DNA of 64,000 nucleotides from an uncultured Caulobacterales bacterium (GTDB lineage Bacteria > Pseudomonadota > Alphaproteobacteria > Caulobacterales > Maricaulaceae). The translations under genes and the position numbers were made by a program. Positions 4,908-23,310 of this stretch are shown here, piece by piece. The stretch's first letter is position 1; each line of letters opens with the position of its first letter. The notes under the pieces are model-generated. The model searched no databases. It saw only the letters and a program-made list of their open reading frames with translations, and was not told the origin of the DNA. The stretch is taken from contig CANNER010000002.1 in assembly GCA_947503715.1 (NCBI GenBank), positions 310,001-374,000 on the forward strand, written 5' to 3'.

Positions 4908-6071
4908 ATGTCCAAACGCGATTATTACGAAATTCTGGGCGTTCCTAAAAACGCCGATGAGAAAACGATGAAATCCGCCTTCCGCAAGAAGGCGATGGAA
5001 TGCCATCCGGACCGTCATCCTGATGACGAAGGCGCGGAAGCGCGGTTCAAGGAATTGAACGAAGCTTATGGCGTCCTCTCTGACGAACAAAAGCGCGCGG
5101 CCTATGACCGGATGGGTCATGCGGCGTTCTCGCAAGGGGGCGGCGGAGGCGGTGGCGGCTTCCAGGATTTCAATGATATTTTCAGCCAGATGTTTGGCGG
5201 CAGCGGGGGCGGCGGCTTCGCCGATATGTTTGGCGGCGGCGGACGTCGTCAGCGTGAAACGGTGCAGCGTGGCTCTGACCTCCGCTATGAACTCGACATT
5301 ACGCTGGAAGAGGCTTTCGCGGGCAAGGATGTGGAGATCACGGTCCCGATTGCTGAGGATTGCGATCGCTGTGACGGCGTCGGGGCGGAACCCGGGGCGG
5401 AAGTTGAGACATGTTCGACTTGTAACGGTATTGGCCGCGTGCGCACCAATCAGGGGCTCTTCACCATGGAACGCGCTTGCCCGACTTGTGGCGGGCAGGG
5501 CGAATATGTGTCTGACCCTTGCATCCAATGTGACGGACAGGGGCAGGTGCGCCAGCAAACCGAACTCGACGTGTCCATTCCCGCGGGTGTCGAAGACGGC
5601 ACGCGCATTCGCCTGACCGGGCAAGGCGATGCTGCGCCGAAACGGGGCGGCGGCGGCGGGCGTCAACGCGGTGATCTCTATATTTTCGTCGGCGTGAAAT
5701 CGCATGAATTATTCGAACGTGAAGCCGCCAATCTCTTTTGCCGTGCGCCCGTGCCGATGGCCACGGCCGCCCTAGGCGGAGAGATCGAAATCCCGACCAT
5801 TGATGGTGGGAGGTCGAAAGTGAAAGTCGCCGAAGGCAGCCAATCCGGCAAGCGCCTGCGCCTGCGTGGAAAAGGGATGAGCGTCTTACGCTCGGACCGT
5901 CGCGGCGATATGTATGTTGAACTCGCGGTCGAAACACCGTCCGGCCTGACCAAGCGTCAGCGCGAATTGCTGGAAGAGTTTGCTGCAGAGGGCGGCGATC
6001 ACACGGCCTCACCGGAGAGCCGGAATTTCTTTGATAAAGCGAAACGCTTCTGGGATGAACTTGTCGACTAG
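4908..6071 (+). CDS. dnaJ: Chaperone DnaJ (Hsp40)
   Basis: A 387-residue type I Hsp40. The J-domain occupies residues 1-70, with the HPD motif in CHPDRHPDD that stimulates DnaK's ATPase. A Gly/Phe-rich linker follows (about 78-120, rich in GGGGGF). The zinc-binding domain has four CxxCxGxG modules (CDRCDGVG, CSTCNGIG, CPTCGGQG, CIQCDGQG), and the C-terminal peptide-binding domains end at KRFWDELVD. An AAGGAAA site precedes the ATG. It is on the same strand as dnaK but separated by two small genes and three terminators, so coordinated heat control would need a separate promoter; no sigma-32 element was found in the short gap. Confidence 0.97.
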   Translation: MSKRDYYEILGVPKNADEKTMKSAFRKKAMECHPDRHPDDEGAEARFKELNEAYGVLSDEQKRAAYDRMGHAAFSQGGGGGGGGFQDFNDIFSQMFGGSGGGGFADMFGGGGRRQRETVQRGSDLRYELDITLEEAFAGKDVEITVPIAEDCDRCDGVGAEPGAEVETCSTCNGIGRVRTNQGLFTMERACPTCGGQGEYVSDPCIQCDGQGQVRQQTELDVSIPAGVEDGTRIRLTGQGDAAPKRGGGGGRQRGDLYIFVGVKSHELFEREAANLFCRAPVPMATAALGGEIEIPTIDGGRSKVKVAEGSQSGKRLRLRGKGMSVLRSDRRGDMYVELAVETPSGLTKRQRELLEEFAAEGGDHTASPESRNFFDKAKRFWDELVD

Positions 6072-6077
6072 CAAAGT

Positions 6078-6884
6078 TTAAAGCAATTGCGTTCCAATAT
6101 AAATAACAGATGGGTACGCGGCACCAAAGGCCCAGACGAACGCGTTCAGTCCCATAAAGAGGCCGACGCTGAGGTGAAAAACTATTCCGACAAAAATGCC
6201 AAGAAAGAATATTCCTCCGTCAAAGAAAAAAATAAATGGAAATAAAATTTCCCACCCTATTGTTGCCCAGCAAATCAAAAGACTGGCCCCAGCATAACGT
6301 TTGAAGAAGTCTTGTGTGAATTTGTTGCCATATGTGTGGGTGGACAGGACGCCTTTCGCCGCCAAGCCTTGACGCCAGCTTGAGGAAAAGAGTTTTGAAA
6401 AACCTGACGCAAAATAAGAAATGCAGAGTTGTCCTGCGATAAAAATAATTCCGACCAGATTAATGAACTCAGACGAACTTAGACAAAAACAAACGAGGAC
6501 GGCGATAGAGACGAAGAAGGACATCTGATCCGCGCCGTCCGTGCCTAGATCCTGTCTATAATATAGCAGAAACATACAGGCAAAAATGACAGTCCCTAGA
6601 ATTTTTCCGTAAACAGGTGCGACGTCAGTCAAAATGAACAACACTGAGAGAAAGCCGCATAGGGTACAGGTAAGACCTATACCCATCATGCCTTGTGGGG
6701 AATAAATTCGGGCTAATAATCCAACAGCTGGGGACCTTCTCATCCAAGTCGGGCCAATAATATTCCAATCGAAAATACCACGTGGTGCCAGCTCATATTT
6801 TAATGCGGCCATTTCAAGCGACTTTACCGCCCCTGAAATAGATAAAAGCAAACAAGTGAGAGTATAGGTGTCAAATATTGTCAT
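6078..6884 (-). CDS. HTTM-like polytopic membrane protein
   Basis: A 268-residue protein with about seven hydrophobic segments. Its pattern (an N-terminal helix, MRRSP and GLLARIYSPQ region, a central FASGFSKLFSSSWRQG segment, GWEILFPFIFF and a final FHLSVGLFMGLNAF) resembles the HTTM fold (horizontally transferred transmembrane domain, vitamin-K gamma-carboxylase-like). SdpB, which matures the Bacillus SdpC toxin, belongs to that fold. It is the last gene of a three-gene minus-strand operon; its ATG overlaps the stop of the 184-residue gene by four bases (ATGA). Composition is AT-rich relative to the flanking core genes. The membrane nature is certain, the HTTM assignment likely, the function unknown. 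Confidence 0.6.
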   Translation of the reverse strand: MTIFDTYTLTCLLLSISGAVKSLEMAALKYELAPRGIFDWNIIGPTWMRRSPAVGLLARIYSPQGMMGIGLTCTLCGFLSVLFILTDVAPVYGKILGTVIFACMFLLYYRQDLGTDGADQMSFFVSIAVLVCFCLSSSEFINLVGIIFIAGQLCISYFASGFSKLFSSSWRQGLAAKGVLSTHTYGNKFTQDFFKRYAGASLLICWATIGWEILFPFIFFFDGGIFFLGIFVGIVFHLSVGLFMGLNAFVWAFGAAYPSVIYIGTQLL

Positions 6885-11111: not shown

Positions 11112-11403
11112 ATAGCGGGGTTAGCGTGGAGCGAGCCGTGGGGGAAGAGGGAGTCCTACAAGGCTGTGCTCAACTCTTTGGGAAATATATCGAACTGAAA
11201 GAGGTCAATCGACGGGTTGAGGGGTCAGTATTTATATTCACTCATAGCGATTTGCGCCTTATCCGTCAGACGTTTTCAAACCTTACACGCATGGCAACTC
11301 CCTTGATTGTTATCCAATCTAGGGTTACCGAATGGTTGAACACTGTAGCATCTTACTATCAGGTTTTGGGAATTGCAGTTTAAAAGCCTGCTTGGAGTAT
11401 ATT
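11112..11403. other. Divergent intergenic region before the RTX gene
   Basis: 292 bases between the divergent antiporter and RTX genes, holding both promoters. A TTGAAC at about 11335 followed about 15 bases later by TATCAG is a weak promoter candidate for the RTX gene. The GGAG at 11394-11397 is its ribosome site. No hairpin or repeat of note. Confidence 0.3.
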
Positions 11404-14400
11404 ATGTATAGACGCATTGACGATTTCGCAAATAAGGCCATTGGCAGTGTCGAAATTTATGGTGAATCCTTAAAAGCCATAGATTTCAAATATTTTGACT
11501 CCAAACTAAATGGTTTCATGCGACATCTCGAAAATACCAATGTGTTTTTCACTCCCATGAGAGTGCCTGAACTTGCGTTGAATTTCAGATTTGCGGAGAT
11601 GGTAGCAGAGGACGATTTCACAGATAACAGTACAACAACAGGGTCTCTTGATATTGACGGCATGGCTGAGGGCGTCATTAATTTTGAGGGTGACTCAGAT
11701 TGGTTTGAAATTGAATTAACGGTGGGGGATGTCATTCGTATTGCGGTTGACGATACGGACGTTAACTTGTCGTTGCGGGATAAATCTGGAAACTTCATTG
11801 CCTTCGATTTTAGAGACTTCGATACCAACGAAAACTTAATTGTTATGGAGGTTGTAGACGGTGGGACTTTTTATGTTGACGCCCGCAGCTTCACTTCACC
11901 CTTAAACTATACTCTAACCGCGACAACGATTGAGGATGATTTTTTAGGTAATTCTGAAACATCTGGTACTCTGGAAGTCGGGGCGACTGCCACGGGATCT
12001 ATCGAATATAGAGGTGACTCAGATTGGTTTGCCATTGAATTGGTGGCAGGCGAAACTATTCGTATCGCCTCTGATGACATAGATACCGTTATCTCCTTAA
12101 GAGATGAATTTGGTAATTTTGTCGCGTCTAATTACAGAGATTTTGATACAAACGAGAGCGTCATCATCGCACAGGTGGACGCGAATGGAACATTCTATGT
12201 TGATGTGGAGAGCTTTAACTCGACTGTGAATTACGTACTGACGGCGACAGAAATTGAAGACGATTTTTCGGGCAATAATGATACAACGGGTATTTTAGAG
12301 GTTGGCGGGACAGCTACGGGTTCAATAGATTATAGATTTGATCCAGACTGGTTTGCAATAGAGCTTGTGGCAGGGGAAACCATTCGGATTGCGTCCAATG
12401 GAACGGATACAAACCTATCGCTGAGAGATGAACTTGGAAACCTTATCGCCTCAGATTTCAGGGACTTCGATACGGATCAGTCTGTCATCATTGCACAATT
12501 AGACCAAACAGGAACATACTATATTGATGTCAGCAGCTTTACCTCGCCGCTGGATTATACGCTCACGGCGACAGTCATCGAGGATGACTTTGTGGATGAT
12601 GCAGACACGACAGGGAGTTTGGACGTCAGTGGCACAGCCACAGGCTCGATAGATTATAGAAATGACTCAGATTGGTTTGCGATTGAGCTGACAGCGGGTG
12701 ATATCGTTCGTATTGCCTCTAATGACACTGATGCAAATTTAACTCTGCGGAATGAGTTTGGAGGCGCCGTCGCGTCTAATTTCAGGAATTTTGAGACGAA
12801 TGAAAGTGTTATCATTGCCCAGGTCGAAGAGAGCGGGACTTTCTATGTTGATGTCAGTAGTTTTGAGTCGTCTTTAAACTACACACTCACGGCGAGCGAG
12901 ATTGATGATGATTTCTCGGATAACGTGGACACGACGGGTGTTCTTGAACTCGGCAATACAGCCAGAGGCACAATCAATTATAGAAATGACTCAGATTGGT
13001 TTGCGATAGAGTTGGCGGTTGGGGATATCGTCCGTATTGCCGTTAATGACATTGATTTAAATATGAGCTTACGGGATGAATCTGGAAATCGCTTTGGATT
13101 CAATTTTAGAGATTTTGACACCGATGAGGCCGTCATTATCTTTGACGTCGAAGAAAGCGGAACATTCTACATTGATGTAAACGGCTTCTCTCCGCCCTTG
13201 AACTATACGCTTACAGCAGATGTCCTCGATGATGATTTTTCGGACGATACGACGACAACGGGTATTCTCGAAGTTGATGGCACGGCGAGCGGTTCAATTG
13301 ACTTCAGAAATGATGAGGATTGGTTTGCGATCGATCTCGTAGCGGGGGAGACCGTTCGTATTGCGTCCAATAACGTAGATGCAAATTTGACGCTCTTAGA
13401 TGCCTCGGGAAATAGTGTCGCTTTTGATTTCAGAAATTTTGATACAAATGAGAATGTTCTCATAGCGCAAGTCGATGAGAGTGGGGCATTCTATATTAAC
13501 GTGAATAGCTTCAGTTCACCTCAAGACTACACACTTACATCTACAGTGATTGAAGATAGTTTTTCGGACGATTCGAATACGACCGGTGTTCTTGAACTGG
13601 GCGGAACAGCCACTGGTTCAATTGATTTTAGAAATGACTCGGATTGGTTCGCCATTGATTTGACAGCGGGCGACATCATTAGGATTGCATCTAATGATAC
13701 AAATACGGACCTGTTTTTGCGAGATGGGTCTGGAAACTTTCTGGCCTTCGATTTTAGAGATTTTAATACAAATGAGAGCGTCATAGAGACCCTGGTGGAA
13801 GTAACCGGAACTTTCTATGTCGATGTCAGAGGCTCTACGTCCCCTCTGGACTACACGCTCACAGCCGTAAAAATTGAAGACGATTTTTCCGGTGACACTG
13901 AAACGCTTGGGACTTTAGAGATTGGCGGTACCTCCATGGGGTCGGTCGATTTCAGAAATGATTCGGACTGGTTTGCGATAGATTTGACGGTCGGTGATAC
14001 GATCCGAATTGCCTCTGACAATACTTCTGCAAATTTGATTTTGCGGGACGAATTTGGAAATTTCGTGGCCTCCGATTTCAGAGATTTTGAGACAAGTGAG
14101 AATGTTATCATCGCCCAAGTCGACGTGGCTGGCACGTTCTTTGTTGATGTCAGTAGTTCAAGTGCACCGTTAGATTATACCCTCACAGCTACGGAAATCG
14201 AAGACGATTTTTCGGATGATGAAAACACGACGGGTGTTCTTGAAGTTGGCGGCACAGCCATGGGGTCCATTAACTTTCGAAATGACAGCGATTGGTTTGC
14301 GATTGAGCTGACGGCGGGTCAACTTGTCAGGATCACATCCGACGGCTTTGAAGCAGATTTAGATTTACGCGGTTTGTCTGGAGAGTTTTTTGCGACTGAG

Positions 14401-17400
14401 TATCTCGATTTTGATAATGGTGAAACTGTTATCCTGGTGGAAGTAGAAGAGAGTCAGACAGTCTATGTCGTCGTAGACAGTTTTGAGTCATCTTTGGATT
14501 ACACGCTCTCGGCCGCAATACAGGAGGATGACTTCTCAAATAACACGGAGACAACGGGCGTTCTTGAGGTAGGGGCTACGTCTATTGGAAGAATCGACTT
14601 CAGAAATGATGAGGACTGGTTCGCGATTGAGCTCACGGCGGGGGAGATCATTCGAATTGCGTCTAATGATACGGATGCGAGTTTAACATTGCGAGATGAA
14701 GCCGGAATTTTCGTCGCCTCTGATTATCGTGATTTTGGTGCGAATGAGAGTGTTATCATTGCGCAGGTTCAAGAAAATGGCATTTATTATATCGGTGTTG
14801 ATAGTTTTGATGCGCCCTTGGATTACACACTGACCGCATCTGTTCAGGAAGATGACTTTGCAGCAAATATCGACACGACGGGTGTTCTTGAAGCTGAAGG
14901 CACGGCCACCGGATCAATTGAATATCGAGCTGATTCAGATTGGTTCGCGATTGAGCTTACGGCGGGTGAATTTATTCGTATTGCCGCTGATAGTGATGAT
15001 GTTAATTTAGTTTTGCGGGATGAGTCTGGCGAGAGTGTCGCATTTGACTTCAGAGATGTCGTCACCAATGAAAATGTTATTATCGCGCAAGCGGAACAGA
15101 GCGGAACATTTTATGTTGATGTAAGTAGTTTTAACGCCTCCATTGATTACACGCTCAACGCTACGGTTTTAGAAGATGACTTCGCAGCTGACACGGACAC
15201 GGCTGGTATTCTTGAGATCGGCAGCTCTTCCGCAGGCGTAATTAATTTCCGCGGTGATTCAGACTGGTTCGCGGTTGAGCTCACAGCGGGAGAACAAGTC
15301 CGTTTCACATCTGAAGACGTCACGACCAGCTTGGTTTTGCGTGACGAATTCGGGAATTTTGTTGCCTCTAATTACAGAGACCGTGAAGCGGATGAGCCCG
15401 TCCTGGTATATGAAGCCGAAGAAAGTGGAACGTTCTTTGTTGACGTAAGCACTCTCCGCTATTCTCTGGATTACACAGTAACGGCGTCTATTCAGGAAGA
15501 CGACTTCAGGGCTAATACTGACACGACCGGAACCCTTGAAGCGGGTGGCCGTGCGACAGGTGTGATTGATTTTAAAGATGACGCAGATTGGTTTGCAATA
15601 GAAATTACGGACACTGACTTAGATCTAAGGCTTTTCGTCGACAGCCCTCGTGTGAGTTTGTCTCTTTATGACGCAAATGGAAATTTGCTCAGACCTTCAA
15701 TTGACGACACAACAATTAGTTTTTCTGAGGCGGGAACATATTATATTTCTGCTTTTGAGTCATTTTTTGACGCGGGCGATTACACAATATCATCGGTCAT
15801 TGTGGACTCTGTTGATGCAAATCTTCCCGTTACGAATGCTGGGATCGTTGATACAGTTGTGGATGACGCCAACGCGATCACTTATTCTCTAAGCGATGAT
15901 GGAATACTAATTCGATACTCCACTGAAACGGGAACCCTTCTGCCCGAGACCGATCTTGGCGTAGATACGAGTGCGCTCTCCCTTAGTCAGGACGGGCAGT
16001 ATTTATTTGCGGCTCAAGCGGATTTAACGGACGTCGGAAATAATGTCTTTGAAGCCACAGTCTTGCGGATTGATACAGAAACACTGGCAGTCGAATCCTT
16101 CTCTTTTGAAGTTTCGGGTCAAGGTTATGAGATTACCGACATACAGGCCGCAGCCGATGGTTCATTATTTGTGACAACAAATTTCCCTGGATCAGGATGG
16201 GTGCCTTTTTATAATTTATCCGGCTTTGACGACATATTGTCCGTTAATGTTATTGATGATGATGAATTTTCAGGCTTCAACGGCGTGCGTCAGAATACGA
16301 CGTTAGATATTTCACGTGACGGTCAATTCCTTCTCATGGCCGAGAGTAATATCTCAAGCTACCCGGTCCATATTTATTCCGTCGAAACCGGTGAGGTCAT
16401 CGCCTCAACAAATCACGGCGGATTTAACTTCGACAAAAACGCAATCAGCGGTGAGGCGAGATTGGTTGCCGTGGCGGGATATAACGAAGTTACCTTATAT
16501 GATTTCGATCTTAACCCAATTGCGGATTTGACAGGAATTTATGGGAATGCGGAACGTGTTGACCCTATATTTTCAAAAAATGGAGAATATTTGTTCTTAG
16601 TCAATGACGCATTTAATGGGGATAGCAGTATCGCTGTTATCAGCACGTCAACTTATGAGGTCGTTTCCTTCGTAGATGTTGCTGGAAATATCTCATCTAT
16701 TTCTGATGTTGATCTAAGCCCTGATGGCCTTAGCATCATCGTGACCAATCAAAGTGGCGTTCGTTATTTCGACTTTTCTGAAACTGATCTCTCCCTGAAC
16801 GGGACTGAAGCTCGCGATAGGCTTTTTGGCACTGAATTTGATGAACTGATAACGGGCCTCGCTGGCAATGACATCTTGAACGGCCGGGCGGGCGACGACA
16901 CTCTCCTCGGCGGAGAAGGTAACGATATGCTGATTGGCGGAGCGGGCGATGATACGATATCTGGCGAGTCAGGCGATGATAGAATTTTGGCTGGATCGGG
17001 CGATGACATCGTGGAGGGCGGCGCAGGCGTTGATGATATTCTGGGTGGGTCAGGCAATGACTTCATCTTCGGTGGAGACGGCGATGATCTGATTGATGGC
17101 CAAGCCAATAATGACATTATCGAGGGGGGTGCTGGCCGCGATACGATTTTTGGAGGTAACGGTAATGATCTGATCAAAGGACAGTCAGGAAATGATGCTC
17201 TTCGCGGCGGCGACGGCAATGACCGCGTCGAAGGTGGCACGGGTAATGATTTTCTTGGCGGTGCAGGCGGTCATGATCTTCTAATTGGCGGAACCGGACA
17301 TGATCGTCTTTATGGTGGGTCTGGACAGGACACTTTATTCGGACAGCAGGGCAATGACCTTCTCGTGGGCGGGGGCGGAAATGATCGCCTTGTCGGCGCC

Positions 17401-17748
17401 GCTGGAAATGATGTTCTGGACGGTCAGGCCGGTGATGATATCCTTGAGGGCGGCAGTGCGAATGACAACCTGACCGGCGGCAGTGGTGCTGATACGTTTG
17501 TTCTCAGTCGCTTCGCCGCGACGACGACCGTGACGGACTTCACTGACGGTGTGGATGTGCTCGACCTGTCCGACTTCAGCGATACGGATATTGCGAATGC
17601 TCTAGACGGCGCGGTTCAGCAGAATAGTGATACCGTTCTGACCTTTGCTAATGGATCTGTCCTGGTCTTGGAAAATTTCGATCTTATAGATTTGTCCGAT
17701 GAGGATGTTCTGGGATATGATGCATCAGATGTGGCGCTCATGGCCTAA
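11404..17748 (+). CDS. Giant RTX protein with 13 PPC-like repeats
   Basis: The ATG at 11404, six bases after GGAG, is preferred over an upstream in-frame start, giving 2,114 residues. There is no N-terminal signal peptide. Residues about 69-1465 are 13 tandem repeats of about 108 residues, each with EDDF, TTGxLE, DSDWFAIEL, RIAS, LRDE.GN, FRDF, SGTFYVDV and LDYTLTA, resembling bacterial pre-peptidase C-terminal (PPC) beta-sandwich domains. Residues about 1475-1793 look like a YVTN/WD-type beta-propeller (LSQDGQYLF, ISRDGQFLL, FSKNGEYLF, LSPDGLSII). Residues about 1799-2033 hold some twenty GGxGxDxx Ca2+-binding nonapeptides, then the SGADTFVL...VTDF...D tail typical of type I secretion. Likely a surface or adhesion protein. 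No dedicated HlyB/HlyD/TolC set adjoins it. Very acidic, with AT-rich codon use. Confidence 0.9.
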   Translation: MYRRIDDFANKAIGSVEIYGESLKAIDFKYFDSKLNGFMRHLENTNVFFTPMRVPELALNFRFAEMVAEDDFTDNSTTTGSLDIDGMAEGVINFEGDSDWFEIELTVGDVIRIAVDDTDVNLSLRDKSGNFIAFDFRDFDTNENLIVMEVVDGGTFYVDARSFTSPLNYTLTATTIEDDFLGNSETSGTLEVGATATGSIEYRGDSDWFAIELVAGETIRIASDDIDTVISLRDEFGNFVASNYRDFDTNESVIIAQVDANGTFYVDVESFNSTVNYVLTATEIEDDFSGNNDTTGILEVGGTATGSIDYRFDPDWFAIELVAGETIRIASNGTDTNLSLRDELGNLIASDFRDFDTDQSVIIAQLDQTGTYYIDVSSFTSPLDYTLTATVIEDDFVDDADTTGSLDVSGTATGSIDYRNDSDWFAIELTAGDIVRIASNDTDANLTLRNEFGGAVASNFRNFETNESVIIAQVEESGTFYVDVSSFESSLNYTLTASEIDDDFSDNVDTTGVLELGNTARGTINYRNDSDWFAIELAVGDIVRIAVNDIDLNMSLRDESGNRFGFNFRDFDTDEAVIIFDVEESGTFYIDVNGFSPPLNYTLTADVLDDDFSDDTTTTGILEVDGTASGSIDFRNDEDWFAIDLVAGETVRIASNNVDANLTLLDASGNSVAFDFRNFDTNENVLIAQVDESGAFYINVNSFSSPQDYTLTSTVIEDSFSDDSNTTGVLELGGTATGSIDFRNDSDWFAIDLTAGDIIRIASNDTNTDLFLRDGSGNFLAFDFRDFNTNESVIETLVEVTGTFYVDVRGSTSPLDYTLTAVKIEDDFSGDTETLGTLEIGGTSMGSVDFRNDSDWFAIDLTVGDTIRIASDNTSANLILRDEFGNFVASDFRDFETSENVIIAQVDVAGTFFVDVSSSSAPLDYTLTATEIEDDFSDDENTTGVLEVGGTAMGSINFRNDSDWFAIELTAGQLVRITSDGFEADLDLRGLSGEFFATEYLDFDNGETVILVEVEESQTVYVVVDSFESSLDYTLSAAIQEDDFSNNTETTGVLEVGATSIGRIDFRNDEDWFAIELTAGEIIRIASNDTDASLTLRDEAGIFVASDYRDFGANESVIIAQVQENGIYYIGVDSFDAPLDYTLTASVQEDDFAANIDTTGVLEAEGTATGSIEYRADSDWFAIELTAGEFIRIAADSDDVNLVLRDESGESVAFDFRDVVTNENVIIAQAEQSGTFYVDVSSFNASIDYTLNATVLEDDFAADTDTAGILEIGSSSAGVINFRGDSDWFAVELTAGEQVRFTSEDVTTSLVLRDEFGNFVASNYRDREADEPVLVYEAEESGTFFVDVSTLRYSLDYTVTASIQEDDFRANTDTTGTLEAGGRATGVIDFKDDADWFAIEITDTDLDLRLFVDSPRVSLSLYDANGNLLRPSIDDTTISFSEAGTYYISAFESFFDAGDYTISSVIVDSVDANLPVTNAGIVDTVVDDANAITYSLSDDGILIRYSTETGTLLPETDLGVDTSALSLSQDGQYLFAAQADLTDVGNNVFEATVLRIDTETLAVESFSFEVSGQGYEITDIQAAADGSLFVTTNFPGSGWVPFYNLSGFDDILSVNVIDDDEFSGFNGVRQNTTLDISRDGQFLLMAESNISSYPVHIYSVETGEVIASTNHGGFNFDKNAISGEARLVAVAGYNEVTLYDFDLNPIADLTGIYGNAERVDPIFSKNGEYLFLVNDAFNGDSSIAVISTSTYEVVSFVDVAGNISSISDVDLSPDGLSIIVTNQSGVRYFDFSETDLSLNGTEARDRLFGTEFDELITGLAGNDILNGRAGDDTLLGGEGNDMLIGGAGDDTISGESGDDRILAGSGDDIVEGGAGVDDILGGSGNDFIFGGDGDDLIDGQANNDIIEGGAGRDTIFGGNGNDLIKGQSGNDALRGGDGNDRVEGGTGNDFLGGAGGHDLLIGGTGHDRLYGGSGQDTLFGQQGNDLLVGGGGNDRLVGAAGNDVLDGQAGDDILEGGSANDNLTGGSGADTFVLSRFAATTTVTDFTDGVDVLDLSDFSDTDIANALDGAVQQNSDTVLTFANGSVLVLENFDLIDLSDEDVLGYDASDVALMA

Positions 17749-17917: not shown

Positions 17918-18130
17918 ATGTCAGATCTCTACCGTAAAGAAGCGCTTGCGCACCGGACCCGTGCTCTGTTCGGGGAGGTGCGGTTAAAGGCGCCGCCCTC
18001 GACGTGGTTGGTTACGATCTTGCTCGCCATTGTCGTTGTCAAGGTCGTCGCGGCGCTGTTCCTGTTGGATGTGGAGACGGCCGCGGGGTCTGTGCGGTTA
18101 TTGGATTGGCTCCTGGGCGCGAAATCATAA
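17918..18130 (+). CDS. HlyD-like N-terminal stub (membrane-fusion protein remnant or minimal partner)
   Basis: A 70-residue protein. Residues 1-29 (LYRKEALAHRTRALFGEV) resemble the cytoplasmic N-terminus of HlyD/CvaA-type membrane-fusion proteins (compare FRxEAL...GxxxL), and residues 30-50 are a single membrane helix (TWLVTILLAIVVVKVVAAL). The protein ends about 20 residues later, where a normal HlyD would continue for some 350 residues of periplasmic hairpin and lipoyl domains. Its TAA overlaps the transporter's ATG (TAATG), so it is translationally coupled and looks maintained. The ATG lacks a good ribosome site; a TTG in frame at 17897 is less likely. It may anchor or regulate the exporter without bridging to TolC. 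Confidence 0.65.
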   Translation: MSDLYRKEALAHRTRALFGEVRLKAPPSTWLVTILLAIVVVKVVAALFLLDVETAAGSVRLLDWLLGAKS

Positions 18131-20181
18131 TGGCGAAACTGCCCGTTATTTTACAGACCGAGACGACGGAATGCGGTCTGGCCTGTCTCGCCATGATTGC
18201 GCGCTATCACGGGCATAATATAGATTTGAATGTGCTGCGGCGTCGGCACCTCGTCTCCATGACCGGGGCGTCGTTGAAATCCGTGATACAGATTGCGGAC
18301 GGACTGCAGCTCTCCGCACGGCCGCTCAAGGTCGAGCTGGATCATTTGCAGAAGCTCCAGACGCCCGCGATTTTGCACTGGGATCTCAACCATTACGTTG
18401 TGTTGAAATCGGTCAAGGGCGACCGCGTCGAAATCGTCGATCCGGGCATTGGCCTGCGGCGAATGTCGCTGGATAAGGTCTCAAAACATTTCACGGGCAT
18501 CGCGGTGGAGTTTACGCCGCAATCTAATTTCACGGCCGTACAGGCGCGGATGAAACCGCGGATCTCGCTGCTCTGGTCGCGGCTCGTCGGGTTGAAGCGG
18601 GCGGTGGGGCAGACGCTCGTCCTGTCCGTTATATTACAAGCCGTTGTCCTGCTCGCGCCGTTTTATTTGCAGCTCGTCGTGGATGCCGTCCTGCCAGAGG
18701 GGGATCGTGGGTTGCTCCTCGCGCTGGCCATTGGCTTTGGCGGGCTTATGATCCTGCGCGCCGTCGCGGAAGCCGTGCGCGGTTGGGCAATTGTTGTCTA
18801 TGGGAACCAGATGTCCCTGCAAATGGTGGGCAATGTCTTCCGCCATCTCATTCGCCTGCCGACGCGCTATTTCGAGCGGCGCCATATTGGCGACATTATC
18901 AGCCGGATGGGCTCGACCGTCCCGATTCAAGAGGCCCTGACCCAATCCGTCGTCGCTGTGATCTTAGACGGCGCGATGGCGGTCCTCATGCTAATCGTGC
19001 TCTTTGCTTATTCGCCGCTTTTGGGCGCTATTGTTTTGGTGAGTGTTGCCCTCCTCGTCCTCGCAACACTCCTCATTTATCCGCATCTGCGTCGCACGCA
19101 GGAAGAGAGTATTTACGCTAAGGCCTTGGAAAACTCACACGTCATAGAAAGTGTCCGCGCCAACACAACGGTCAAGCTTTTCGGGCGCGAGGCGGAACGC
19201 GAAGCGGCCTGGCGGAATCTTTATACCGATTTCATCAATGCCAATGTGAATTACGGCCAGTGGGTGGTGGCGCGGAAATTTTTCGAGACGCTGCTGACGG
19301 GCTTGCAGATTGTCGTGGTTGTCTGGGCCGCCGCCGAGATTATGATGGGTGAAGGGTCAGTCTTTACCCTTGGTATGCTCGTCGCGTTTCTCGCCTATCG
19401 TCAATATTTTACGGATGCCGTCGTGCAGCTCTTGGAAAAGGGGATCGAATTTAATTTGCTCTCGCTTCACCTCGACCGGCTTTCTGATATTATTTTCGAG
19501 GAGCCGGATGAAGCGCATACGGGTGAGACAGAATTAAAAGATTTGCAGGGTAATATCGCGCTGGAGGATGTGTCTTTCCGCTATTCCGAAACGGACCCAT
19601 GGGTCGTCAGCGATATGTCACTTGATATTGCGGCGGGTGAGATGGTGACCCTGACGGGATTATCCGGTGGTGGGAAAACCACATTGATGAAGCTGATGTT
19701 GGGTCTGTATGAACCCGTGAAGGGCCGTGTAAAAATTGATGGTCATGACCTTGCCGCGCTCAACCGTGCGGATTGGCGAGCCCATATCGGCGTCGTCATG
19801 CAGGATGACCGCCTCCTCTCCGGCACTCTGGCCGATAATATCAGCTTCTTCGACCCTGAAATTGATATGCAGCGCGTCTACCGCGCAGCGCAGGCGGCAC
19901 AGATCCATGACACTATCGCGCGACTGCCCGGCAATTATCAGGTCGTGATAGGGGAAATGGGATCAGTCCTGTCAGGCGGGCAGAGACAGCGTGTCCTCCT
20001 CGCCCGCGCACTCTATCAAAATCCAAAAGTCCTGTTCTTGGACGAGGGCACGGCTAATCTGGATGTCGAAACCGAAGGTGCCATTGTTAAAATTATCCGC
20101 GACCTCCCCATAACGCGTGTCATAGTGGCACACCGCCCCGCATTCTTAGAAGCCAGCGATAGGGTCATTCGCGTGGAATAA
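18130..20181 (+). CDS. Peptidase-containing ABC exporter (C39, double-glycine leader type)
   Basis: A 683-residue PCAT-type transporter. The N-terminal C39 domain (1-130) has its active site intact: Gln9, Cys15 (TECGLACLAMIARYHG), His88 (LNHYVVL) and Asp104 (DPGIG). About six membrane helices follow (about 150-430). The ATPase domain has Walker A GLSGGGKTTL, Q-loop VMQDD, signature LSGGQRQRV, Walker B VLFLDEGTANLD and H-loop VIVAHRP. Such proteins cut after Gly-Gly in leader peptides and pump the core out of the cytoplasm. The intact Cys argues against an HlyB-type RTX transporter, in which it is lost. The obvious substrate is the 22-codon peptide gene 260 bases downstream. The start overlaps the stub's stop. 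Confidence 0.92.
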   Translation: MAKLPVILQTETTECGLACLAMIARYHGHNIDLNVLRRRHLVSMTGASLKSVIQIADGLQLSARPLKVELDHLQKLQTPAILHWDLNHYVVLKSVKGDRVEIVDPGIGLRRMSLDKVSKHFTGIAVEFTPQSNFTAVQARMKPRISLLWSRLVGLKRAVGQTLVLSVILQAVVLLAPFYLQLVVDAVLPEGDRGLLLALAIGFGGLMILRAVAEAVRGWAIVVYGNQMSLQMVGNVFRHLIRLPTRYFERRHIGDIISRMGSTVPIQEALTQSVVAVILDGAMAVLMLIVLFAYSPLLGAIVLVSVALLVLATLLIYPHLRRTQEESIYAKALENSHVIESVRANTTVKLFGREAEREAAWRNLYTDFINANVNYGQWVVARKFFETLLTGLQIVVVVWAAAEIMMGEGSVFTLGMLVAFLAYRQYFTDAVVQLLEKGIEFNLLSLHLDRLSDIIFEEPDEAHTGETELKDLQGNIALEDVSFRYSETDPWVVSDMSLDIAAGEMVTLTGLSGGGKTTLMKLMLGLYEPVKGRVKIDGHDLAALNRADWRAHIGVVMQDDRLLSGTLADNISFFDPEIDMQRVYRAAQAAQIHDTIARLPGNYQVVIGEMGSVLSGGQRQRVLLARALYQNPKVLFLDEGTANLDVETEGAIVKIIRDLPITRVIVAHRPAFLEASDRVIRVE

Positions 20182-20440
20182 TCCGCTTAAAGAGCCTGAA
20201 ATGCGGTTTATGGGTAATTTTATCTAAATAAACACAACCTTTTTTAGAAATTTTGGAACTTTCCGCATTTGAAGCCGTAGGTAAAGTGTACGTTAACCAT
20301 AATTTGTGCTGACTTAGAACGTTTTTCCTTGCAATCTGGCACGGAAATCGCGTTAAGTAGGAAGTACGGAGGTGGGGCCCGTACCGCAGAAGGGTGGGGC
20401 TTTTGTGTTTTCTTTTAACTAAAACACAGGAATTCAAGAT
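20182..20440 (+). promoter_or_regulatory. 5' region of the peptide gene: possible CtrA half-site and two leader hairpins
   Basis: 259 bases without a gene. TTAACCAT at 20293-20300 equals the CtrA half-site known in Caulobacter, but the second half at the right spacing is lacking. A hairpin GTACGG/CCGTAC spans 20364-20384. A second, 8-bp perfect hairpin TGTGTTTT/AAAACACA spans 20404-20428 and ends where the ribosome site AGGA (20428-20431) begins. The second stem could control access to the ribosome site. Confidence 0.45.
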
Positions 20441-20509
20441 ATGCGTGAACTATCTTTAGAAGAACTCGAAACAGTAACTGGTGGACAGCCCATCGTTATC
20501 TGGCTTTAA
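20441..20509 (+). CDS. Double-glycine peptide precursor with a seven-residue core
   Basis: A 22-codon gene, ATG to TAA, too small for usual gene finders. Residues 1-15 are a canonical double-glycine leader, MRELSLEELETVTGG, matching the LSxEEL..V.GG pattern recognised by C39 peptidases. The predicted core after the Gly-Gly is only QPIVIWL, hydrophobic with one Trp and an N-terminal Gln that might cyclise. AGGA lies about 10 bases before the ATG, and a strong terminator follows 24 bases after the stop, so it is a discrete transcript. It lies between the matching exporter and a sensor kinase. Bacteriocin precursors are normally much longer, so a signalling peptide or a small modified peptide is the better guess. 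No modification enzyme gene is adjacent. Confidence 0.8.
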   Translation: MRELSLEELETVTGGQPIVIWL

Positions 20510-20532
20510 GTCAAAATAGATAATTTATACTG

Positions 20533-20556
20533 ACCCGCCTCTCGGCGGGTTTTTTT
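20533..20556 (+). terminator. Rho-independent terminator of the peptide gene
   Basis: ACCCGCC (20533-20539), loop TCTC, GGCGGGT (20544-20550), then a T run. Only about 50 bases separate it from the kinase ATG with no obvious promoter, so the kinase may depend on partial readthrough. Confidence 0.92.
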
Positions 20557-20607
20557 GTATCAGAATTTTAAGAATTTTGTCGTATCGCTTCGGTCTGGAG
20601 CTGACGA

Positions 20608-23310
20608 ATGCTGTTTTTAAGAAGAGCCTTTAAAAGTCTAATCTGCGTTGTGGTAGCCTCAATTTGGGGTGTTTCTGCGTTTGCAGACACTCAAAAGGAC
20701 CTGGATGCTGATTTGGTTGAAGTTGTTGAAACCATAAAGAAGCAAGCAACTAACCCAGAGCAAAGAACACTCTTACGGAATAACTCTAACTTCTTACTCG
20801 GATTTGACTCAGAAGACGCATTTTTTGTATCTATGAATGAGATATTTACGTCATTGATATTGAGCGATGCCGACGAGTTGCGGAAAGCGGTTTCCAATTT
20901 TTCCAAAATTGATAGTTCGAAGAGCGGGGTGAGTTCAGAAAAAATTGTCGAACTATACAATTTGTACGCTAACGCATTAGAAGAGAATAAGAGCGTAGAA
21001 GAGATTGAAAAGCAACTTCTACCATTTTTAGAAAGTGGAGAATGGTTCCAAGAATTTCTAGCTTACCAGCTTTCATTCTATAGCTATGCAAATTTCTATA
21101 AATCAGACAATCACATCACGATTCAAAAAGCACAAGAAGCGTTGTCTGTAATACCACCAATAGAAACCGAGTTGGCTAATTTTGCACGTATAGAGATGAC
21201 GAGCGTTCTAGCTCACACCCACAATGTAAAAGGAAACACGAAACTAGCAATTTCTACTACCCAAGAGTATCTGAGATTAACTAAATATAATTTTGATCCA
21301 AATGAGTCTCTAAACCTGCTCAATAACCTTCTTTATTCTCATTTAATCTGGAGAGATACGGTTGCGCAAGAATATCTAGCAAATGCATTGCTTGAGCTAG
21401 AAAAAAACCTAGAGTCGGAAGCGCCGGGATTGACAGAGCTTCGCGTGGCACAAACAAAGGTAGAAGTCGGCGAATATGGTGAAGCTTTAGAGTACTCAAT
21501 TCTTGCTTTTAAAAAAGCGTCTCTGCCCCAATTGAGGCTACAGGCCAAGGTAACTGAGGCTACTGCGCTGGCCGGGCTGAATAAAGTTAAAGAGGCCGAA
21601 GCAATTATTGATATCTATCAGTTAAATATATCTCCTGATAGAGTCTTGAATGAAAAATCCTCAAACTCAGTTCTTCAATTGGCTTTCCTCATGGCCCTAA
21701 AATCCGGCGATGATAAGCTGGCTATTACATTGTCAAACCGTCGTCTTCAGCTCCTCAGTCAAAACTTTTTAACAGACGCAGCCAGTGACACGTCATCCGT
21801 TCTGGCCTCGCTCGAAAACTCGCGTGCGCGGCAGGAAGAACGCGCTGCGGCCGCCGCACGGGAGGCGGCTTTGCTTGAACTTACGATTGTAAAACAGCGG
21901 AAATTGAATCGCACATTGATGGCCTTATTGGGGCTCGCGGGGTTAGCGCTTATCGGATTAGTGGCCTTCCTAAGATTCCGGGAACGCACCATGAAGGAAC
22001 TCGCGATTAAACGCAAAGAGGCGGCTTCTGCGGATAAATTAAAGACCGATTTCCTGGGTATGATCAGTCATGAACTCAGGACGCCGCTTAACGGGGTCAT
22101 CGGGTTTTCCGACCTGCTCAGCCAAACCCATACCGATCCTGATGTGAGACAGAAAACGGGCGTAATTTTGAAAAGCGGTCATGAATTGTTGGATGTTGTC
22201 GAATCCATGACGGATATGGCGCGCATTGATGCGGGCCAGATGAATATCTTACCGGAAGACTCGCACCTACCCACATTATTGGAAGAGGTCGTGGAACCGT
22301 TGCAAGCCAAAGCGGAAGAGAAAGGCCTCGCTTTTACGCATTATATTGATCCGGATTTGGGTGAGCATTTTGTGGATGGTCAACGGTTGCAACAATGTGT
22401 TCGCACGGTGCTCTCAAATGCGGTGAGCTTCACAGAACGCGGGCGTGTTCATATGCATGTCACAACGCAAAAATCATCCGATGATGTCGTGACAGGTGTG
22501 ACCGTCAATATTGCGGATACAGGCGTCGGGATGAGCGAGCTCGTCCAATCGCGTCTCTTCACGCCCTTCATGCAGGCGGATACATCCCTCCGCCGCAGTC
22601 ATATGGGCACGGGCTTAAGCCTCGCCATTGCAAAAGCTCTGACGGTTCTGATGGAGGGTGAATTAACCGTTGTCAGTCGCGTCGGACGCGGCTCCGAATT
22701 CACACTCACGGTCCCTCTGGCGGCACCGGTATCCGTGCATGTTGAAACTGACGCAGTGGACGATATTGAACATGTTGAGGCGCTTTTAGAGCATGAGATG
22801 CCTGCGCCGCTGCCACCGGCTATCCTTGACCTCATGCAGCCTGTGGCGGGTCGCGACATGGCGCCGCTTCATGCGCCGCCGCAAATGCCGGAGAATAATC
22901 TTGACGGTTTGCGGGTTCTCATTGTCGATGATCTGGAGAATAATCGCCGCATTCTGCGTGATATGTTGGAGCCGCAGGGCTGTATCTGTTTCGACGCACC
23001 GGACGGCGAAGACGCTTTAGAGGCCCTTAATGCCGGGCCATTGGATATTGTGATCATGGATATTCACATGAACCGTCTGGACGGTGTTGAGGCGACACGA
23101 TTAATTCGGGACTCCCGTGCGCCCTTTGCAGATATTCCAATCATTGCCCTGACGGCGGATAATGCCGCGACAACGAATGCAGCCTGTATGGCGGCAGGAG
23201 CGGATATTTTCCTGACCAAGCCTGTCATGCTTGATGAAATTTGCCGGGCCTTGGCGTTCCTGCAGACCGGAAAATCACGTCGGACCCTGCGCCAGGTTGA
23301 AGCGGGCTAA
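20608..23310 (+). CDS. Hybrid sensor histidine kinase with periplasmic TPR-like domain
   Basis: A 900-residue protein after GGAG and ATG at 20608. Residues 1-26 are a signal peptide (ICVVVASIWGVSAFA). Residues 30-430 are helical, TPR-like repeats that should lie in the periplasm. A coiled segment and one membrane helix (about 437-460, LMALLGLAGLALIGLVAFL) follow. The HisKA box is FLGMISHELRTPLNG with the phosphorylated His near residue 488. The HATPase domain has LSNAVSF, IADTGVGM and GTGLSLAIA. A receiver domain (about 770-890) has VLIVDD, the acceptor Asp in VIMDIHM and ITALTADN-like plus TKPV motifs. There is no HPt or output domain, so a separate phosphotransfer partner is needed. The sensor half is AT-rich; the kinase half has normal composition. 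Confidence 0.9.
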   Translation: MLFLRRAFKSLICVVVASIWGVSAFADTQKDLDADLVEVVETIKKQATNPEQRTLLRNNSNFLLGFDSEDAFFVSMNEIFTSLILSDADELRKAVSNFSKIDSSKSGVSSEKIVELYNLYANALEENKSVEEIEKQLLPFLESGEWFQEFLAYQLSFYSYANFYKSDNHITIQKAQEALSVIPPIETELANFARIEMTSVLAHTHNVKGNTKLAISTTQEYLRLTKYNFDPNESLNLLNNLLYSHLIWRDTVAQEYLANALLELEKNLESEAPGLTELRVAQTKVEVGEYGEALEYSILAFKKASLPQLRLQAKVTEATALAGLNKVKEAEAIIDIYQLNISPDRVLNEKSSNSVLQLAFLMALKSGDDKLAITLSNRRLQLLSQNFLTDAASDTSSVLASLENSRARQEERAAAAAREAALLELTIVKQRKLNRTLMALLGLAGLALIGLVAFLRFRERTMKELAIKRKEAASADKLKTDFLGMISHELRTPLNGVIGFSDLLSQTHTDPDVRQKTGVILKSGHELLDVVESMTDMARIDAGQMNILPEDSHLPTLLEEVVEPLQAKAEEKGLAFTHYIDPDLGEHFVDGQRLQQCVRTVLSNAVSFTERGRVHMHVTTQKSSDDVVTGVTVNIADTGVGMSELVQSRLFTPFMQADTSLRRSHMGTGLSLAIAKALTVLMEGELTVVSRVGRGSEFTLTVPLAAPVSVHVETDAVDDIEHVEALLEHEMPAPLPPAILDLMQPVAGRDMAPLHAPPQMPENNLDGLRVLIVDDLENNRRILRDMLEPQGCICFDAPDGEDALEALNAGPLDIVIMDIHMNRLDGVEATRLIRDSRAPFADIPIIALTADNAATTNAACMAAGADIFLTKPVMLDEICRALAFLQTGKSRRTLRQVEAG

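Follow-up and report, generated by a model that had tools for sequence, protein, structure and literature searches.

Short linear peptide pheromones are a hallmark of Gram-positive bacteria. The signals of Pseudomonadota are typically small molecules made by enzymes (RRNPP survey, PMC10075063). Pneumococcal ComAB-ComC-ComD, like other two-component systems with a double-glycine pheromone, combines a C39 exporter and its HlyD-like partner with a Gly-Gly precursor and a membrane histidine kinase (PMC7595303). The RRNPPA receptors (Rap, NprR, PlcR and AimR) have a superhelical TPR-type fold, recognize short linear peptides and are usually encoded next to the peptide gene; they are cytoplasmic regulators of Firmicutes, and their peptides are re-internalised (PMC9765709, PMC10075063). 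The pheromones bound by RRNPPA receptors are 5-7 residues long. Three further systems share features with the locus discussed here. FimS of Porphyromonas gingivalis is a histidine kinase with TPRs in its periplasmic sensor, which its authors suggest may bind a polypeptide, the ligand being unknown (PMC11053733). HetC of Nostoc is a C39 exporter without a nearby membrane fusion protein gene and is proposed to export its substrate into the periplasm (PMC10986499). Class II microcins of the colicin V type share a similar Gly-Gly leader and a C39 exporter. Microcin C is encoded by a leaderless heptapeptide gene and may be comparable to the leaderless ORFs described below.

The present cassette resembles two Gram-positive schemes at once, the Gly-Gly pheromone with a kinase and the short peptide with a TPR receptor. 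In contrast to ComAB-ComC-ComD, the host is Gram-negative, the core comprises 5-11 residues and is sometimes repeated, the HlyD partner lacks its extracytoplasmic part, and the putative receptor, a TPR-like periplasmic domain, belongs to a hybrid kinase. Unlike in the RRNPPA family, the TPR-like domain is a predicted periplasmic sensor with kinase domains attached, which does not match a cytoplasmic, kinase-less receptor served by peptide re-import. Since the receptor domain is not cytoplasmic, and there are no data on cognate binding or a density response, the cassette cannot be assigned to either scheme. A linked peptide gene is present here, whereas none is mentioned for FimS in the relevant sections of PMC11053733. 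The HetC substrate is unknown, no Gly-Gly gene lies near hetC and the protein carries an extra cNMP domain (PMC10986499), features not shared by the present system. Compared with class II microcins, the product has 5-11 rather than tens of residues, the adaptor is missing and a sensor kinase is attached. No description of such a cassette was found in the literature searched, where most subscription papers and preprints fell outside coverage.

The reading that we regard as likely (probability roughly 0.75), predicted from genome comparison, is that the cassette is a self-contained peptide pheromone signalling system in which the peptide would be cut, released to the periplasm and sensed by an RRNPPA-like kinase.

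The peptide gene and its neighbors

The window, that is, the whole stretch of 64,000 nucleotides that was analysed, lies on contig C2 of a 3.15-Mb genome in nine contigs (G000). The features of the locus are as follows.

17918..18130, + strand: mini-HlyD, 70 aa, with an HlyD-like cytoplasmic N-terminus, one TM helix and a short tail (..LLDWLLGAKS)
18130..20181, + strand: C39 peptidase-ABC exporter, 683 aa; Pfam Peptidase_C39 (residues 4-132), ABC_membrane and ABC_tran
20293..20300, + strand: TTAACCAT, CtrA half-site, 148 bp 5' of the peptide ATG
20428..20431, + strand: AGGA, ribosome-binding site of the peptide gene, 9 nt 5' of the ATG
20441..20509, + strand: peptide precursor, 22 aa, with leader MRELSLEELETVTGG and predicted product QPIVIWL (868 Da)
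20532..20558, + strand: intrinsic terminator 3' of the peptide gene (hairpin at 20532-20551 plus T-tail)
20608..23310, + strand: hybrid histidine kinase, 900 aa (Pfam, AlphaFold, Foldseek, hydropathy)
20608..20685, + strand: Sec-type signal peptide of the kinase, residues 1-26, ending ..SAFA before DT (by eye and hydropathy)

The peptide gene is positioned between the exporter and the kinase. Its ORF runs from the ATG at 20441 to the TAA at 20507-20509 and reads MRELSLEELETVTGG followed by QPIVIWL. An earlier note, made from the sequence alone, had claimed a C39-processed heptapeptide signal encoded by this ORF with its own ribosome site, followed by a strong terminator and next to an exporter with an intact C39 active site. 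The ORF, the leader, the ribosome site and the exporter held, and the signal is supported by the comparisons below, with signalling and cleavage resting on inference only. As to the terminator, the hairpin is present; a scan found two terminator-like sites against 1.9 in shuffles, which makes the window's hairpin on its own weak evidence. Across genomes, a perfect-stem terminator follows 27 of 37 homologous ORFs.

Searches with the window's peptide gave no Pfam model above the cut-off and no paralogue in the window's genome (second match E 6.4). None of five precursors tried reached the cut-off of an NCBIfam family; the window precursor came nearest with bacteriocin_sig (15.5 bits against a cut-off of 15.7) and RiPP_CCRG-2 (21 against 24). 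Rfam returned sub-threshold matches only (Trp_leader, lsy-6 and Hrs13).

Conservation among relatives

Relatives were examined in one Caulobacterales family (Litorimonas, Algimonas, Hellea and Robiginitomaculum; 137 genomes). Searching them with a profile built on the sensor of the kinase gave matches in 59 genomes at E<=1e-3, of which 44 reached E<1e-20. Five of the 44 could not be judged because of a fragment or contig end (G002, G005, G009, G011 and G062). In all 39 readable loci a tiny ORF lies directly 5' of the kinase; it carries a Gly-Gly leader in 35, a Gly-Ala leader in one (G141) and no leader in three. The one weaker match inspected among 15 in the family (G071, E 2e-12) has no such ORF upstream. 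Relatives of the exporter, found in 60 genomes, led to 25 loci in which an ORF of 21-45 residues shares the leader and has a very short core; 134-277 bp lie between the exporter and this ORF, and 54-188 bp between the ORF and the kinase downstream.

The genome_contigs collection (84,980 species) was also scanned with a degenerate pattern of leader plus P-[IV]. The pattern matched 22 places, of which 21 are within the Caulobacterales clade, all with the kinase close by. The remaining match is in an Acidobacteriota MAG (L053, 3938-4132), where the ORF has the same leader motif and a 64-aa product; none of the ten window proteins searched for was found there.

The exporter is directly 5' of the peptide gene in 33 of the 36 leader-bearing loci; two others stop at contig ends (G127 and G143) and in G018 the exporter is elsewhere. 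The kinase is directly 3' in 36 of 36, a linkage partly built into the sampling, as these loci were mostly found via the kinase. The same leader and short core recur beside an orthologous exporter and kinase across genera, and the finding is therefore more than chance. The existence and conservation of the ORF at 20441-20509, and its linkage to exporter and kinase, are shown by computation. A lack of conserved small genes in relatives, which would have refuted the earlier note, is not what is seen: the small gene is conserved, and the core is both conserved and repeated.

The surroundings of the cassette vary. In the window, a gene (11332-17748) whose 2138-aa product contains RTX repeats and 12 PPC-domain stretches sits between a Na+/H+ antiporter gene and mini-HlyD, and in several relatives (e.g., L033, L037 and L040-L042) the antiporter gene immediately adjoins mini-HlyD. 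No gene 3' of the kinase is common to all seven loci inspected; G017 and G006 have the same downstream genes, and those of the window recur only in close relatives (L030-L032 and L048). In two species of one genus (G018, L104; G061, L114) the peptide-kinase pair follows a Clp-ATPase-like gene (by eye) and is not beside the exporter. In one species the precursor consists of a leader and three GPVIIET cores, and in the other the ORF is leaderless and has nine codons.

Short cores, tandem cores and leaderless ORFs

A single core of 5-11 residues is present in 28 of the 36 leader-bearing precursors. In 25 of these 28, core positions 2-3 are P-[IV], as in NPIVIDF, MPIIIDF, RPIIVEW and GPVIDW; the single cores without the motif, which is absent in G035, G085 and G088, are KRLKIKV, KVVVDY and KIVVD. 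Seven of the 36 carry 2-4 tandem copies (FPIDIEV x2; FPIIIG, LPIDIEV and GPVIIET x3; RSIKT, LPADIEW and IPVIDF x4), and G129 is the sole precursor with a longer predicted product, of 31 residues. At L137 and L138 the four tandem cores are separated by ATA or xKA spacers, and the protease that would separate them is unidentified.

In three of the 39 loci only the core is retained, as an ORF of 8-11 codons directly before the kinase:

L105 (G004): MRGPIIIL
L114 (G061): (M)TKNPIIIG, with a GTG start
L117: MSIRKQPIVDF

These ORFs were picked out by eye before a control was designed. In shuffled DNA of the leaderless loci, a P-[IV] mini-ORF with a Shine-Dalgarno sequence arises in 0.3-1.5% of cases. 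Among 281 upstream regions from 40 loci there are seven such mini-ORFs, namely the three leaderless ORFs, one that lies within a genuine precursor (L040) and three more. No exporter match was seen in the DNA examined at the three leaderless loci, and the best exporter match in G004 covers the ABC part only (31%); export there is therefore unexplained. Together, the repeats and the leaderless genes suggest that the core is the unit under selection.

It might be argued that the ORF is merely a decayed, truncated microcin gene without function. Its shortness and the longer Gly-Gly ORFs near two related exporters fit such a view. However, the length and the motif are kept, the core is duplicated in tandem and it is even kept without a leader. 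Codons vary synonymously in both leader and core, and the peptide has dN below dS in nine of nine close pairs, albeit over only 21-22 codons and with a slight difference for the window-G013 pair. This explanation is all but excluded.

Another possibility is a cis-acting leader peptide: as ribosomes translate the Ile/Val-rich ORF, attenuation or nascent-chain arrest would govern the terminator before the kinase. The terminator between ORF and kinase, the leaderless mini-ORFs of 8-11 codons and the sub-threshold Trp_leader match (22 bits against 41 needed) speak for it. However, pairing between the ORF and the 5' arm of the terminator shows no excess over synonymous recodings, with six of 24 loci better than the mean (mean z +0.49); this antiterminator test was confined to ORF against 5' arm and left out the leaderless ORFs. 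ATC and ATT make up most of the Ile codons, which is also the case in the exporters. Moreover, a cis-acting role would account neither for a C39 leader next to an exporter of the C39 type nor for the basic RSIKT x4. We consider this model very unlikely.

The exporter and its reduced HlyD partner

The exporter N-terminus reads QTETTECGLAC...HWDLNHYVVL...DP, which is consistent with an intact C39 site. The stop codon of mini-HlyD overlaps the exporter start. A short ORF at this position was found in all 32 loci where the DNA 5' of the exporter is readable, 28 as ORFs read and four by tblastn (G035, G129, G126 and G130). The 28 ORFs encode 63-105 aa, the start of the longest (G034) being unclear. 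They match the N-terminus and TM helix of HlyD. The periplasmic hairpin, lipoyl and barrel domains of an HlyD-type membrane fusion protein are missing, and the 70-aa window protein gave no Pfam match. All 28 tails have a Trp among their last 20 residues, and 14 of them have W-x-W. By eye, the tail resembles the ends of the full-length HlyD proteins, about 410 aa long, that are encoded beside two related exporters (L045 and L046). The low dN of mini-HlyD (0.10-0.32) relative to dS (1.2-2.3 in six of nine pairs, not computable in three) makes it look like a working gene.

The reduction of the HlyD partner is shown by computation. What follows from it is inferred: with a partner devoid of its periplasmic part, the peptide is more likely to be released into the periplasm than to be secreted directly. 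The earlier note, which was silent on mini-HlyD and the kinase and proposed to look for the peptide in both periplasm and medium, is corrected here in favor of the periplasm. Eight HlyD_3 matches are present elsewhere in the window's genome, and one of these other HlyD proteins could possibly supply the adaptor in trans.

Locus L045 (G018) has at 5836-6648 a pair of longer, microcin-like Gly-Gly ORFs, 74 and 64 aa when counted from MREL, upstream of the full-length HlyD and an exporter 54-55% identical to that of the window. No match to the window's kinase was seen within the 19 kb examined there. A locus of this type may perhaps be the ancestral type.

These longer ORFs bear on a further alternative, that the peptide is an antimicrobial (a mini-microcin), which the kinase senses for auto-induction or immunity. 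In its favor, the leader comes near the bacteriocin and CCRG-2 leader models, below their cut-offs, the exporter family is bacteriocin-type and longer microcin-like Gly-Gly ORFs occur near two related exporters (L045 and L049). However, the cores have 5-9 residues and are acidic in some cases and basic in others, and the intergenic gaps given above for 25 loci would accommodate only a very small immunity gene. In addition, the adaptor for export from the cell is missing and a receptor-like kinase is present at every readable locus. We regard a mini-microcin as unlikely.

The hybrid kinase and its predicted sensor

The kinase consists of a predicted periplasmic helical sensor (residues ~27-400), a long helix, a TM segment (433-458), HisKA (479-543), HATPase (590-705) and REC (770-882). 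The signal peptide together with a single later TM segment by hydropathy places the sensor domain in the periplasm; the consensus AxAQ in the 14 aligned sensors also supports the signal peptide. Some kinases of the family are shorter and seemingly lack REC (G017, 721 aa; G076, 694 aa).

Two sensors, that of the window and that of Robiginitomaculum antarcticum, were modelled with AlphaFold; both models consist of helices only, with pLDDT 82.0 and 82.8, respectively. The two models drew on the same 14 aligned sequences and are not fully independent. Among the top 50 Foldseek matches in the PDB, 15 and 22, respectively, are RRNPPA proteins (Rap, NprR and AimR). The best match of the window model is a designed TPR (E 2.2e-4) and its best RRNPPA match is RapH (E 1.5e-3). 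For the R. antarcticum model, the best match is 8rtc, a phage Rap with the pheromone RGHTS (E 2.8e-4, TM 0.56 on target). TM scores on target are about 0.45-0.6, and eukaryotic and other TPR proteins rank alongside the RRNPPA proteins; the likeness is therefore one of fold and proves neither descent nor binding. By sequence, TPR likeness is weak (designed TPR, E 3.6e-5), with TPR_2 found in three of 14 sensor members and no TPR model matching the window's own kinase. Hence the sensor is predicted by modeling to be TPR-like, resembling RRNPPA receptors among other TPR proteins, and there are no binding data.

This prediction goes beyond the earlier note: a kinase with a predicted peptide-receptor-like fold follows the peptide gene at all 39 readable loci. 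The note's analogy with the RtgS type needs correction, as the RRNPPA-like fold here is on a periplasmic kinase sensor. The RtgS receptor is a cytoplasmic Rgg. The observation in the note was right and understates the case.

Pairwise comparison of 23 full-length kinases (253 pairs) gave a mean identity of 26% in the sensor, against 46% in the kinase core and 49% in REC; the exporter averaged 66%. A crude partial Mantel test over 29 of 34 loci (five were dropped for lack of an exporter, a short kinase or as G018) detected no coevolution of peptide core and sensor beyond exporter divergence (r -0.16, p 0.92); core against exporter, given the sensor, gave r 0.32 and p 0.003. That the kinase is the receptor of the peptide remains an inference, as linkage does not establish it and coevolution was undetected.

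Outside the family, three weak sensor matches were found among 398 genomes of the order (L134, L135 and L136; E 1e-17 to 1e-20), and no short P-I peptide ORF was seen upstream of these kinases. Kinases of this kind, with similar sensors, are a possible source of the receptor.

CtrA-type sites

The sequence TTAACCAT has been named as a CtrA site (PMC6180460, PMC3692519). It or its complement is present in 18 of 36 upstream regions (22 sites), where shuffling gave a mean of 0.88 regions and a maximum of four in 300 shuffles. The regions, up to 330 bp 5' of the peptide gene, were taken from 34 leader-bearing loci plus G004 and G061. Some extend into the exporter gene, and the count is uncorrected for relatedness. 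The two commonest 8-mers upstream are TTAACCAT and TAACCATA, in 13 regions each. The presence of CtrA-type sites is shown by computation. A ChpT-like HPt protein is encoded in the window's genome, and that the hybrid kinase feeds ChpT is inferred.

These sites are also relevant to the strongest alternative, a closed periplasmic circuit in which the peptide is retained within the cell and informs the kinase about the state of the exporter, the envelope or the cell cycle. It shares the molecular steps of the preferred model and differs in purpose. Support comes from a mini-HlyD without adaptor, the predicted periplasmic sensor and the CtrA-type sites upstream. A mass of 868 Da is, moreover, large for general porins. 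Against it, the variable cores and tandem repeats look like those of diversifying pheromones, and the porin limits of these bacteria are not established. This circuit remains possible.

A model for peptide signalling

Returning to the pheromone model, a short, separately terminated transcript, probably CtrA-driven, would give the 22-residue precursor; expression is itself inferred. The C39 domain of the adjacent exporter would cut after Gly-Gly, and the heptapeptide QPIVIWL would cross the inner membrane. Without the periplasmic adaptor for docking TolC, which the HlyD partner has lost, the peptide would be released into the periplasm. From the periplasm, QPIVIWL may pass the outer membrane and enter neighbouring cells. 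The peptide is predicted to bind the TPR-like superhelix of the neighbouring hybrid kinase's periplasmic sensor, in a manner similar to pheromone binding by RRNPPA receptors, and binding would shift the kinase/phosphatase balance, in a direction that can only be inferred. The phosphate would probably be handed to an unlinked HPt such as ChpT; this output, like a role at the population level, is an inference.

A bolder reading would see a new communication class, comprising an RRNPPA-like receptor outside the Gram-negative inner membrane that is wired via a hybrid kinase into CckA-ChpT-CtrA, a one-membrane C39 exporter with its adaptor cut to an anchor, species-specific heptapeptide pherotypes, poly-pheromone precursors and leaderless 8-codon genes. 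Taken as one joint claim, we lean slightly against it.

Significance

With the ligand gene, the processing exporter and the candidate receptor side by side, peptide signalling in a Gram-negative bacterium becomes directly testable with synthetic heptapeptides. The host bacteria are marine, stalked and often alga-associated Caulobacterales. ORFs of 8-22 codons are below the usual limits of gene callers; if the model is true, ORFs this short can be conserved signals. A minimal HlyD may likewise convert secretion across two membranes into export across one, and cell-cell or periplasmic signalling would be linked to CtrA.
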